In this document: positions 18,435-56,062 of the stretch, piece by piece | How positions within the stretch are numbered: the first letter of the stretch is position 1 | How the letters are laid out: every line of letters begins with the position of its first letter | NCBI RefSeq assembly: GCF_900100755.1 | Contig: NZ_FNCI01000006.1 | Coordinates: forward strand, 1 to 64,000 | Length of the DNA stretch: 64,000 nucleotides | From: Onishia taeanensis | Lineage (GTDB): Bacteria; Pseudomonadota; Gammaproteobacteria; Pseudomonadales; Halomonadaceae | Direction of reading: 5' to 3' | Translations under genes and position numbers: made by a program | The notes under the pieces: model-generated | Seen by the model: the letters and a program-made list of their open reading frames with translations, nothing else | What the model was told of the DNA's origin: nothing | The model's database searches: none

Positions 18435-19643
18435 ATGGCTCTCGACGCAAGCGATACCCGCCTCAACAAGTTCATCAGCGAGACCGGCATCGTCTCGCGT
18501 CGCGAGGCCGACCGGCTGATCGAGGAAGGCGCGGTCAAGGTCAATGGCCGCCGCGCCGAAATGGGCATGCGGGTGACCGATGTCGACCGGGTCACGGTGC
18601 GAGGCAAGCCGCTGCGGGCCAAGCCGCGGCCGGTCTATCTGCTCTATAACAAGCCGGTCGGCGTGACCTGCACCACCGACCCCGCCGACCCCACCAATAT
18701 CGTCGATGCGATCAACTACCCCGAGCGCATCTTTCCCATCGGCCGACTCGACAAGCCCTCCCAGGGACTGATCCTGCTGACCAACGATGGCGATATCGTC
18801 AACAAGATTCTGCGGGCCGGCAACGCCCACGAGAAGGAATACCAGGTGCGGGTCGACCGTCCCATTGATCAGGCCTTCATCGAGCGCATGGGCGCGGGTA
18901 TTCCGATCCTCGGCACCGTGACCCAGCCCTGTCCGGTCCACCAGACAGGGCCCAACAGCTTCACTATCGTGCTGACCCAGGGCCTCAATCGCCAGATCCG
19001 TCGCATGACCGAGTACCTGGGCTATGAGGTCACCTACCTCAAGCGGGTACGGCTGATGAATATTCATCTCAACCGGCTGTCTCCCGGCCAGTGGCGAGAG
19101 CTGAGCGACGATGAGATGGCCACTCTGGAGGGCATGCTCGGCGATTCGCGCAAGACCGAAGAGGCCTCGTTGCCCAAGCGCAAGGCCAAGCCCGCCAAGC
19201 AAGGACCTGGAAAGCAAGGGTCTGGCAAACAAGGGTCTGGGAAGCCGGGGGCCGGAAAATCAGGTGCCGGCAAGCCCGGCGCCAAGCGAACCGCCCAGCC
19301 CAATCAGAGAAAGACCGCTCAGGGAAAGCCAGGCCAGGGAAAACCGGGGCAGGGTAAGCCAGGGTCGACTAAGCCCAAACGCGCCATCCGGCAGGGAGCG
19401 AAGTCCGCTGAAGGCCAGCAAGGTGACGCTGCCAAGCCCAAGCGGGCGATCAAGCAGGCGAGCAAACCCGGCGCCGGCAAGCCGACAGGCAAGGGCGGTC
19501 AGGGCAAGGCAGGCGCCGGCAAGCAAGGAGCGGGTAAGAGTGCCCAGAGCAAGGGTGCCCCGAGCAAGAGAGGGCCTGGCAATAAAGGGCCCAACAGGGC
19601 CGGCGGCGGGCCCGCCAAGCGCTCGCCGCGCGGGCGTTCCTGA
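18435..19643 (+). CDS. rluF: 23S rRNA pseudouridine synthase RluF with long repetitive basic tail
   Basis: Residues 1 to about 235 form a standard RsuA/RluF enzyme. An S4 RNA-binding domain (LNKFISETGIVSRREADRLI) precedes a pseudouridine synthase domain with the catalytic aspartate in GRLDKPSQGLILLTNDGD. RluF modifies 23S rRNA near the peptidyl-transferase centre (U2604 in E. coli). The remaining roughly 160 residues are unusual: a low-complexity tail of Lys, Gly, Pro, Ala, Ser and Gln with recurring GKQGSGKPG-like units and several PKRAI blocks. It is probably disordered, highly basic and suited to RNA binding. E. coli RluF is much shorter. Frameshifted translations of the tail have no merit. 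Confidence 0.92.
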   Translation: MALDASDTRLNKFISETGIVSRREADRLIEEGAVKVNGRRAEMGMRVTDVDRVTVRGKPLRAKPRPVYLLYNKPVGVTCTTDPADPTNIVDAINYPERIFPIGRLDKPSQGLILLTNDGDIVNKILRAGNAHEKEYQVRVDRPIDQAFIERMGAGIPILGTVTQPCPVHQTGPNSFTIVLTQGLNRQIRRMTEYLGYEVTYLKRVRLMNIHLNRLSPGQWRELSDDEMATLEGMLGDSRKTEEASLPKRKAKPAKQGPGKQGSGKQGSGKPGAGKSGAGKPGAKRTAQPNQRKTAQGKPGQGKPGQGKPGSTKPKRAIRQGAKSAEGQQGDAAKPKRAIKQASKPGAGKPTGKGGQGKAGAGKQGAGKSAQSKGAPSKRGPGNKGPNRAGGGPAKRSPRGRS

Positions 19644-34127: not shown

Positions 34128-35597
34128 ATGCACGCCAAGCAGCAACTCCTGATCGGCGCTACCTGGCTTCCCGGTGAGGCCGAGGGCTTCGTCAAGACCG
34201 ACCCGGTGTCTCATGACACCCTGTGGCAGGGCAGCAGCGCCAGTGCCGAGCAGGTCGGGGCCGCGGTCGAGGCCGCCCGTGGCGCCTTCCCGGCCTGGGC
34301 TCGTACCCCCTTCGCCGAGCGCCAGGCGCTGGTCGAGCGCTTCCGCGACGTGCTCGATGGCCGCCGTGAGGTGCTGGCTACCGCCATCGCCCAGGAAACC
34401 GGCAAGCCGCTCTGGGAAGCGCGTACCGAAGTCGGCGCCATGATCGGCAAGGTGGCGCTGTCGGTGGCCGCCTATCACGAGCGCACCGGCGAGCGCAGTA
34501 AGGACGTCAACGGCACCCAGGCGGTGCTGCGCCATCGCCCGCATGGCGTGCTTGCCGTGTTTGGCCCCTACAACTTCCCCGGCCACCTGCCCAACGGTCA
34601 CATGGTGCCGGCGCTGCTGGCCGGCAATACCGTGGTTTTCAAGCCCAGCGAGCAGACGCCGCTGACCGCCGATCTGACCCTGCAGTGCTGGCGAGAGGCC
34701 GGCCTGCCGGACGGCGTGATCAATCTGGTCCAGGGCGCCGCCCCGGTCGGCCAGGCGCTCTCCGCCCATCCCGGCATCGACGGCCTGCTGTTCACCGGCA
34801 GCGCCAAGGTTGGCGGCATCCTGCAGCGCCAGTTCGCCGGCCAGCTCGACAAGATCCTGGCGCTGGAGCTTGGCGGCAACAATCCGCTGGTGGTCAAGGA
34901 CGTGCCGGATGAGCGCGCCGCGGTGCTGGCCATCCTGCAGTCTGCGTTCCTTTCCGGCGGCCAGCGCTGCACCTGCGCGCGTCGCCTGATCGTGCCGGAA
35001 GGCCCGGTGGGTGATCGCCTGATCGAAGCGTTGGTCTCGGCCATCGCCAAGCTGCGGGTGGCCGGCCAGTTCAGCGAGGACGCGCCCTTCTACGGAGGCC
35101 TGGTCAGCCGCGAGGCGGCCGATGGCCTGCTCAAGGCTCAGGATGACCTGGAAGCCATGGGCGGCAGCGTGCTTTCGCGCATGCGCCGCCTGGAAGAGGG
35201 CACCAGCCTGCTGTCGCCGGCATTGGTCGATGTCACGGGCATCGCGGTGCCGGACGAGGAGCACTTCGGTCCGTTGCTCAAGGTTTACCGCTACGCCGAT
35301 TGGGACGAGGCGATCGCCCTGGCCAACGATACTCGCTACGGCCTCTCCGCCGGGCTGATCGGGGGCAAGCGGGCCGACTGGGACGACTTCCTGCTGCGGA
35401 TTCGCGCCGGCATCGTCAACTGGAACCGCCAGACCACCGGCGCCTCCGGTGACGCGCCCTTCGGCGGGGTGGGCGACAGCGGTAACCACCGCCCTAGTGC
35501 CTACTATGCTGCCGACTACTGCGCCTACCCGGTCGCCTCCATGGAGGCCGAGAGCCTGGTACTGCCCGAGACCCTGCCGGCGGGGGTGGTGCTATGA
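34128..35597 (+). CDS. astD: Succinylglutamate-semialdehyde dehydrogenase
   Basis: The 489-residue aldehyde dehydrogenase oxidises N-succinylglutamate semialdehyde to N-succinylglutamate with NAD. The substrate-binding ELGGNNPLVV motif contains the general-base Glu, and the catalytic cysteine is Cys281 in SGGQRCTCARR. The C-terminal segment [42 protein letters not shown] is the AstD signature. AAGGAG precedes the ATG by 8 bp. The last 90 bp are duplicated 158 bp downstream, and the stop codon overlaps the ATG of the resulting 53-codon ORF (ATGA). Confidence 0.95.
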   Translation: MHAKQQLLIGATWLPGEAEGFVKTDPVSHDTLWQGSSASAEQVGAAVEAARGAFPAWARTPFAERQALVERFRDVLDGRREVLATAIAQETGKPLWEARTEVGAMIGKVALSVAAYHERTGERSKDVNGTQAVLRHRPHGVLAVFGPYNFPGHLPNGHMVPALLAGNTVVFKPSEQTPLTADLTLQCWREAGLPDGVINLVQGAAPVGQALSAHPGIDGLLFTGSAKVGGILQRQFAGQLDKILALELGGNNPLVVKDVPDERAAVLAILQSAFLSGGQRCTCARRLIVPEGPVGDRLIEALVSAIAKLRVAGQFSEDAPFYGGLVSREAADGLLKAQDDLEAMGGSVLSRMRRLEEGTSLLSPALVDVTGIAVPDEEHFGPLLKVYRYADWDEAIALANDTRYGLSAGLIGGKRADWDDFLLRIRAGIVNWNRQTTGASGDAPFGGVGDSGNHRPSAYYAADYCAYPVASMEAESLVLPETLPAGVVL

Positions 35598-35598
35598 G
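35509..35598 (+). repeat. Direct repeat, copy 1: 3' end of astD
   Basis: These 90 bp encode the last 29 codons of astD plus its stop. They recur at 35667-35756 with a single mismatch (A at 35561 versus G at 35719, a silent third-base change). The offset is exactly 158 bp. Confidence 0.95.
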
Positions 35599-35755
35599 TG
35601 AGCCTGTGATTCAGCAAAGGATGGTATCGGTGGCCAAGGCACTCCCAGTGCGCTCATACAAGACCACTGCCGACTACTGCGCCTACCCGGTCGCCTCCAT
35701 GGAGGCCGAGAGCCTGGTGCTGCCCGAGACCCTGCCGGCGGGGGTGGTGCTATGA
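35594..35755 (+). CDS. 53-codon ORF between astD and astB, C-terminal half copied from AstD
   Basis: The frame opens at an ATG overlapping the astD stop and closes at a TGA overlapping the astB ATG, so both junctions are ATGA. The first ~25 residues ([20 protein letters not shown] onward) come from unique sequence; the remaining 28 are identical to the AstD C-terminus. It may be translated by coupling. However, it more likely reflects a duplication scar than a selected protein, because the tail is only the end of a dehydrogenase oligomerisation arm. Conservation in relatives would decide. Confidence 0.5.
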
Positions 35756-35756
35756 G
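35667..35756 (+). repeat. Direct repeat, copy 2: second astD 3' end before astB
   Basis: This copy matches 35509-35598 at 89 of 90 positions. It also carries the ribosome-binding context (GGGGGTGG) and overlapping ATGA that serve astB. The 68 bp between the two copies (35599-35666) are not similar to either flank and contain a small palindrome, GCACT-CCC-AGTGC (35639-35651). Confidence 0.95.
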
Positions 35757-37107
35757 CCAGACCATTAGCGACGTGCGGGAAGTGAACTTCGATGGCCTGG
35801 TCGGGCCGACCCATAACTACTCGGGGCTGGCTCACGGCAATGTGGCCTCGATGAGCCACGGTGGCCTGGTCTCCAACCCTCGGGAAGGGGCCCTGCAAGG
35901 CCTTGGCAAGATGAAGTCGCTGATGGATGCGGGCTATGCCCAGGGCGTGCTGCCGCCCCAGCAGCGCCCGGACCTCGGTGCGCTGCGGGCGCTGGGTTTC
36001 TCCGGCAGCGACGGCGAAGTGCTGGCCCGGGCCGCCAAGGAGGCGCCGCAGATCCTGCGTGCGGTCTGCTCGGCCTCCAGCATGTGGACCGCCAACGCCG
36101 GCACCGTGACGCCGAGCGTCGATGCCCCGGATGGCCGTGTGCACTTCACCCCGGCCAATCTTCAGTCGAGCTTCCACCGCTACCTGGAGCCGCAGACCAC
36201 GGGTCGGGTGCTGGCGGCGATCTTCGAGAACGAGGGCTACTTCGCCCACCATCCGGTGCTGCCCGCCACTCCTGCGTTCTCCGATGAGGGCGCGGCCAAC
36301 CACACCCGCCTGTGCGGTGCCTACGGCGAGCCTGGCGTGCACTTGTTCGTTTACGGCCGCCAGGCCTTCGGCGGTGATGGCATCGAGCCCAAGCGTTACC
36401 CTGCCCGCCAGACGCTGGAGGCCAGCCAAGCGGTGGCCCGCCAGCATGGCCTGACTGACGCCCAGACGGTATTCGCCCAGCAGCATCCAGAGGCCATCGA
36501 CGGTGGCGTTTTCCACAACGACGTGATCGCGGTGGGCAACGGCCCGGTGCTGCTCTACCACGCCAAGGCCTTCCGCGACGAGGAAGGCACCCTGGACGAA
36601 CTGCGCGCCAAGATGGCCACGCCCTTGATCCCGGTGCGGGTGCCGGAAGAGGCTGTCAGCCTCGAGGATGCCGTGGGCTCGTATCTGTTCAACTCGCAGC
36701 TGCTTTCGAACCCGGACGGTTCGATGACCCTGGTGGTGCCCGGCGAGTGTCAGGAGAACGAGGCAGTGTGGCGCACCATTCAGGATCTGCTGATCGCTGG
36801 CGCGAACCCGATCAACGAGGTGCTGGTCAAGGACGTCAAACAGAGCATGCGCAACGGCGGTGGCCCTGCCTGCCTGCGCCTGCGCGTGGCGCTGTCCGAT
36901 GCCGAGCGTAGCGCCGTGACCGGTCGAGTGCTGCTCAACGATGGCCTCTACGCCGATCTCACCGCCTGGGTGGAGAAGCACTATCGCGATCGCCTAGCGG
37001 TGGAGGATCTGGCCGACCCGCAGCTTGCCGTCGAGACCCTGACCGCCCTGGACGAGCTGACCCAGCTTCTCAAGATCGGCTCGGTATATCCGTTCCAGCT
37101 GGGATAG
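35752..37107 (+). CDS. astB: N-succinylarginine dihydrolase
   Basis: The 451-residue enzyme hydrolyses N2-succinylarginine to succinylornithine, two ammonia and CO2, the second AST step. It belongs to the amidinotransferase superfamily. The N-terminal [21 protein letters not shown] is diagnostic, and the catalytic triad is visible: Glu179 in FSDEGAANH, His255 in GGVFHNDV and Cys374 in [11 protein letters not shown]. The length is typical (E. coli AstB 447). The start overlaps the stop of the 53-codon ORF. The gene is followed by a strong terminator, so it ends the operon without astE. Confidence 0.96.
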
Positions 37108-37295: not shown

Positions 37296-38462
37296 ATGAC
37301 TATTTCGCCCCTTGACGCCTACGAGCATGCCCTCGAGCACGGCTTCGTCGAGGATGCTGCCCAGCGTCAAGCCGTCGAGGCGCTGGACGCCTGTGCCCGG
37401 GCGCTGCACGGAGCCTGCGCCAAGGGGACAGAAGACGAGCAAGCGCCCTCTGGCCCAGAACGCGTCAGGGGGCTCTACCTCTGGGGGCCGGTGGGGCGCG
37501 GCAAGACCTGGCTGATGGATCGGTTCGTTGCCTCGCTCGAGGTGCCGGTGCGTCGCCAGCATTTTCATCACTTCATGCGCTGGGTGCACCAGCGTCAGTT
37601 CCAACTGATGGGCACCTCCGACCCGTTGGGGCGGCTGGCGGCCGAACTGGCTGACGAGGTGCGGGTGCTGTGCCTGGATGAGCTCTACGTCAACGACATC
37701 GCCGATGCCATGCTGCTGGGCGGGGTGCTGATCGCGCTGTTCGAGCAACGAGTGGCGCTGGTGACCACCTCCAACCAGGCGCCTGACCAGCTTTATGCCG
37801 ACGGCTTCAATCGCGAGCGTTTCCTACCGGCCGTCGCTGCCCTCAAGCAGCATCTGAAGGTGATTCACCTCGACGGCGGTCAGGACCATCGCCAGCATCC
37901 GGGCGAGGCCCGCAAACGTTACTGGATAGTCGAGCCAGGAGCGCCGAGCCCGCTGCCTGCGGTCTTCGATGAGTTGGCCTCAGGGCAAGCGACCACCAGT
38001 GAGCCCATCAGCCTGGGGCACCGTGAAATCGAAGTGAAGCGGCAAGGGAAAGACGTGCTCTGGTGTTCTTACGCTGCGCTTTGCGAGCAGCCGCTATCGG
38101 CGCTGGATTTCATCGGCCTCTGTGACCGCTTTCGGGCCATCCTGCTGGACGGGGTGCCGAGCCTTAGCGGGGAGCCGGAGGCCGCGCGCATCGCCCGCGG
38201 CACCGAGGACGGCGTAGAGCGAGTCGAAGCGGGCGACCGGTCGCTACCGGCGCTTTCACCTCAGGATGACGGCGTGCGCCGCTTCATTGCCCTGGTCGAT
38301 GAGTGCTACGACCGCGGCATTCCTCTCTACCTCGCCGCCCAGGTGCCCCTCGAAGCGCTTTACTCCAAGGGGCACCTGGCCTTTCCCTTCCGGCGTAGCC
38401 TGAGTCGCCTGCAGGAAATGCAGCTCAGCCGCTTCGGTGTCGACCTGGCGGCTGAGGGCTGA
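37296..38462 (+). CDS. zapE: Cell-division ATPase ZapE (AFG1-like)
   Basis: A 388-residue AFG1/ZapE-type P-loop ATPase with Walker A GPVGRGKTWLMD (about residues 64-75), HFHHFMRWVH following it, Walker B VLCLDELYVND and the sensor VTTSNQAPDQLY. In E. coli ZapE binds FtsZ and destabilises its polymers under stress; the mitochondrial homologue AFG1 aids turnover of respiratory subunits. The start ATG at 37296 has only a weak AGG upstream. The gene stands alone between the AST terminator and the convergent PepSY gene. Near position 330 the LYLAAQVPLEALYSKG segment is conserved in the family. Confidence 0.93.
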   Translation: MTISPLDAYEHALEHGFVEDAAQRQAVEALDACARALHGACAKGTEDEQAPSGPERVRGLYLWGPVGRGKTWLMDRFVASLEVPVRRQHFHHFMRWVHQRQFQLMGTSDPLGRLAAELADEVRVLCLDELYVNDIADAMLLGGVLIALFEQRVALVTTSNQAPDQLYADGFNRERFLPAVAALKQHLKVIHLDGGQDHRQHPGEARKRYWIVEPGAPSPLPAVFDELASGQATTSEPISLGHREIEVKRQGKDVLWCSYAALCEQPLSALDFIGLCDRFRAILLDGVPSLSGEPEAARIARGTEDGVERVEAGDRSLPALSPQDDGVRRFIALVDECYDRGIPLYLAAQVPLEALYSKGHLAFPFRRSLSRLQEMQLSRFGVDLAAEG

Positions 38463-56024: not shown

Positions 56025-56062
56025 ACAACAACGCCTTATACAACAACGATTTATACAACAAC
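56025..56062 (+). repeat. 15-bp periodic ACAACAAC repeats before denD
   Basis: ACAACAAC occurs at 56025-56032, 56040-56047 and 56055-56062, exactly 15 bp apart. The first two units continue GCCTTAT and GATTTAT. The third merges into CAGGTAG, ahead of the denD start at 56075. The run is free of stable structure and matches (ARN)n triplets. Confidence 0.75.

Follow-up and report, generated by a model that had tools for sequence, protein, structure and literature searches.

In the window (the whole stretch of 64,000 nucleotides of Onishia taeanensis that was analysed), the gene order is astC (30610), two arginine/ornithine succinyltransferase subunits (31833 and 32963), astD, astB, and zapE; it is zapE (37296-38462), not astE, that comes after astB in this operon. 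Several short 15-bp tandem repeats are also present in the window, at 19197-19570 and 56025-56062. At the astD-astB junction, our repeat analysis found a pair of 90-nt copies of the astD 3' end (35509-35598 and 35667-35756) which are identical at 89 of 90 positions (99%), are spaced 158 nt from start to start with 68 nt intervening, and share ATGAG as their last letters; the sole mismatch (GTA/GTG) is silent, with Val in both. Chance is far too weak to give a 90-nt repeat at 99% identity. The astD stop lies at 35595-35597 and the astB start at 35752, and the features of the junction are as follows.

34128..35597, forward strand: astD, succinylglutamate-semialdehyde dehydrogenase, with 34128 as the likely start (NCBIfam TIGR03240, 736.8 bits, cut-off 579.3)
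35509..35598, forward strand: copy 1 of the astD 3' end, from the repeat (last 84 nt 80-81/84 against G003, G004, and G006)
35594..35597, forward strand: ATGA overlap of micro-ORF start and astD stop, from sequence reading
35594..35605, forward strand: ATGAGTGAGCCT, 12 nt resembling the native astB start of G006 (MSEPV...)
35594..35755, forward strand: relay micro-ORF, an open frame of 53 codons (24-residue filler part plus AstD C-terminus)
35599..35666, forward strand: filler of 68 bp, homologous to the fillers of 11 other genomes
35639..35651, no strand assigned: palindrome GCACT-CCC-AGTGC, whose arms covary among carriers
35667..35756, forward strand: copy 2 of the astD 3' end (last 84 nt 81-82/84 against the astD ends of G003, G004, and G006)
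35752..35755, forward strand: ATGA overlap of astB start and micro-ORF stop, from sequence reading
35752..37107, forward strand: astB, N-succinylarginine dihydrolase (NCBIfam TIGR03241, 691.9 bits, cut-off 538.3)

The sequence-only reading of this stretch had described the duplication, with its one silent change, 158-nt spacing, and 68 bp between the copies, and had held that the coupled start was retained through the same ATGA at the end of both copies; our analysis bears it out on both counts. The micro-ORF, which is composed of the filler and the second copy, overlaps both neighbouring genes by 4 nt (ATGA at each end), and no Pfam family matched it. Copy 2 supplies astB with a GGGGG Shine-Dalgarno-like stretch and with its ATGA. 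The RNA fold of the 231-nt junction was no better than that of shuffles (z 0.93).

Using the micro-ORF as query, we searched the genomes of the family, and 263 had a matching astD end. A homologous unit was found at the astD-astB junction in 12 of the 263, from four genera (G000, G010, G060, G061, G068, G079, G082, G083, G086, G088, G097, and G174), with two units in G060, G068, and G097 and one in the other nine. With one genome per species, the number among species is 0, 1, or 2, i.e., head-to-tail repeats of varying number; G068 has the 146-bp unit in two copies and then a third astD end. As regards an assembly error in the window's draft, the same repeat structure also occurs in two assemblies of a single contig each, G068 and G097. 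When 275 genomes of the family were searched with the filler, the matches beyond the window were confined to G068 (two, both at the astD-astB junction) and G212, where the match lies in an unrelated gene and is apparently due to chance. In a 390-genome sample of the order, no second astD end was seen outside the family, and a literature search that combined astD, astB, and Halomonas gave no paper on the junction. A different situation is that of G191, which has two separate astD-like genes (C1:873695-873835 and C1:3038994-3039131).

Across the carriers, the unit consists of a filler of about 66 nt (63-78 nt) followed by the last about 84 nt of astD. The unit lengths are 143, 146 (the usual one), 152, and 158 nt; each leaves a remainder of 2 on division by 3, as the 4-nt overlaps require. 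The left part of the filler is variable and astB-head-like, most carriers have a palindrome of the form GCRCT-N3-AGYGC, and the right part aligns by profile with the stretch of astD directly before the last 28 codons (model positions 14-16 onward). The filler is not simply the unrelated sequence that had been proposed: ATGAGTGAGCCTGTGA at the start of the junction matches the astB start of G006, of the same genus, at 15 of 16 positions; nor is its origin a blank, as homologous fillers occupy the same junction in other genera. The filler may be an astB head joined to astD, the resemblances being short stretches (15 of 16 nt shared with G006 for the window, NPT-type heads for G068). The window has 12 extra nt, ATGAGTGAGCCT, like a native astB start, ahead of GTGATTCAG, which is common to G083; these 12 nt are missing from most other carriers' fillers, which align from GTGATTCAG (35606) on, and the boundary may mark where the unit joined. 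The astB head before VNFDG is very variable in length (mostly 8-50 nt, about 100 in some), with the 4-nt overlap always kept (junctions L143-L242). The palindrome arms covary among carriers with a score of 0.237 against 0.113 when shuffled (0 of 500) and at most 0.073 for slid versions, in rows that are related. The idea that the palindrome forms an exceptional hairpin in all carriers was set aside; since the codon-shuffle P varies from 0 to 0.26, only the covariation is informative.

We then compared the history of the unit with that of its flanking genes, using a tree of astD and astB (111 rows, repeat omitted). On this tree, 11 changes are needed to account for the 12 carriers, against a mean of 11.6 for shuffled labels; the 11 changes are forced by well-supported branches, and gains and losses are indistinguishable in such counts. 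Tested on the filler alignment, the astD/astB topology is rejected (AU p = 0.0004), and the astD/astB data likewise reject the filler tree, which is weak at many nodes because the filler is short (63-78 nt). Fillers pair across distant species (G083-G097, G060-G086, and G082-G061), and close relatives differ in filler (G061-G086: filler 0.67, astD 0.94). The first tail of G086 matches G060 at 79 of 84 positions and its own relatives at 66-69; the second matches native non-carrier relatives at 77-80 of 84 and G060 at 66, while the filler is G060-like and astB is native. G086 (locus L103) is thus the most direct case of the exchange, with two astD tails from different lineages in one junction. 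In G009 (L223), the sister of carrier G010, a decayed unit is present whose astD tail is about 22 nt; both overlaps are kept, the filler start resembles that of G010, and G009 also has a small tandem repeat, GAGTCTATGAGT. The scattered presence and the mutual rejection of filler and gene histories are indicative that the unit has been laterally exchanged and/or repeatedly lost, though part of the conflict could come from the sorting of old paralogous units.

In none of the 112 junctions read was the relay between the astD stop and the astB start interrupted: 97 were direct, 12 carried the unit, one had a decayed unit, and two had an unrelated micro-ORF. Each micro-ORF was included at both ends, and every junction has the stop/start overlap of 4 or 1 nt by which termination-reinitiation gene pairs are recognized. 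The unrelated micro-ORF, in G178 and G180 (L230 and L232), has 22-26 codons (MSDSVS...SGVTR), carries no astD tail, and forms an ATGA-to-ATGA relay between astD and astB. Published experiments in E. coli and Haloferax found that reinitiation is nearly lost with gaps of about 20 nt, and that the upstream gene's last 15 nt are enough to support it (PMC10666635). Because of the former rule, a 146-nt insert would uncouple astB unless its frame ends in the right place; the two results together fit the copied astD tail and the shortened tail of G009, which still forms a relay.

We consider it likely that this is a laterally spreading, family-specific tandem unit at the astD-astB junction, tolerated since the copied astD end restores termination-reinitiation. 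Most likely it would have arisen once, through a tandem duplication that joined an astB head to an upstream point in the astD end. Homologous recombination in astD tails would carry it between species, an exchange which G086 and the tree conflict support, and recombination between the same astD-tail repeats would remove it. Ribosomes ending astD would translate the micro-ORF of 48-53 codons, whose frame and overlaps are seen at the junctions, and then pass to astB; an insert of 143-158 nt would leave the two genes coupled because ribosomes are handed on in this way, and the unit would survive because the copied tail supplies a Shine-Dalgarno-like stretch and ATGA. Two considerations count against mere tolerance. 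Near-identical adjacent tails should often be deleted, so the persistence of the unit may mean selection, and the peptide could be constrained, given that differences of the tails from their own astD are mostly silent (pN/pS 0.15).

Selection of the first kind is conceivable, though we think it unlikely, in the form of an expression tuner: a laterally exchanged relay cassette, selectively kept, in which each unit would add a termination-reinitiation step and lower astB protein relative to astD, the extra stop/start hand-overs setting the protein ratio, and repeat recombination resetting it, like a VNTR-like dial, whenever a unit is gained or lost. The one or two units per carrier, the relay that is always intact, the frame kept across all length changes, and the scattered presence would suit such a tuner; but the unit is rare (12/263), and an intact relay is equally expected if broken coupling is merely harmful. 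It is improbable that the micro-ORF encodes a functional small protein with the AstD C-terminal segment, e.g., one binding AstD subunits. The frame is open in all 15 units, and the silent tail differences agree with such a protein but are also expected if both tails came from functional astD genes by recombination. The filler half is about neutral (pN/pS about 0.88), and a Tyr invariant in 112 astD ends is lost from the units of 3 of the 12 carriers, one of which also lost a codon; purifying selection along the whole peptide, as in small-protein genes, is thus not seen. The stop-free filler was rejected as coding evidence, being weak because in 11 of 12 a further frame is free of stops too. 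With the filler about neutral and the Tyr lost in three carriers, ribosome passage is a likelier target of selection than the peptide, which is probably without function.

The sequence-only reading had favoured a single scar of slippage, RecA-mediated recombination, or a lost element. Copies that are 99% alike and six same-genus genomes (G001-G006) with a plain ATGA or GTGA junction would suit a one-off event private to the strain, but 11 more genomes of the family, other genera included, have homologous units and fillers at this junction, and the filler and the flanking genes have conflicting histories; we regard a private scar as very improbable. The comparison with relatives which that reading had called for showed absence from the six same-genus genomes and contradicted a feature private to the strain. 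The unit is rare and scattered, and does not show the pattern named there as telling against a scar, namely presence throughout the genus with diverged copies. Hardly any probability falls to the palindromic filler as a miniature mobile element inserting with a long target duplication. The conserved palindrome with covarying arms and the scattered presence recall one, but the filler's right part can be aligned with astD, and copies at several sites, as an IS, MITE, or REP would have, were not found: in the 275 family genomes, matches of the core pattern at other sites were about as frequent as with the reversed pattern used as a control. The filler as a known or multi-copy element was likewise rejected, as the search of its own genome gave nothing above noise except the window itself and the family pattern scans gave chance-level matches elsewhere.

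Quasi-palindromes can be corrected by template switching, with an example in yeast (PMC3820800). The palindrome arms here similarly change together among carriers, whereas what is seen here is covariation in sequence alone, and selection on a binding site may be at work. The 4-nt ATGA/GTGA overlaps at every step resemble the ATGA-overlap termination-reinitiation coupling of Huber et al. (2019, PMC6728339; 2023 follow-up, PMC10666635), and the duplicated part agrees with it too, being far longer than the 15 nt reported as sufficient for reinitiation. The differences are that ribosomes leaving astD would reach astB through an inserted micro-ORF, in two or three steps, and that coupling is predicted here from the sequence. 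Tandem duplications and VNTRs share the head-to-tail units of ~146 bp, the one to three astD tails per junction, and the near-identity of units within a genome; unlike them, the unit is half gene end and half filler, preserves a stop/start relay instead of a single reading frame, and passes from species to species.

The relay unit is real, recurrent, and laterally exchanged, and we infer the mechanism of its spread and any tuning effect. An operon junction can absorb 143-158 bp, or two such units, with its stop/start overlaps kept, when the insert comes with a short frame, a ribosome-binding stretch, and overlaps of its own. The family offers a natural series for chained termination-reinitiation, with 0, 1, or 2 relay steps, the shortened relay of G009, and the unrelated relay of G178 and G180, and is a case of very short segments passing between species. 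In essence, as these junctions read, a unit of ~146 bases comes, goes, and passes among Halomonas-type species, always built for the hand-over of ribosomes from gene to gene.
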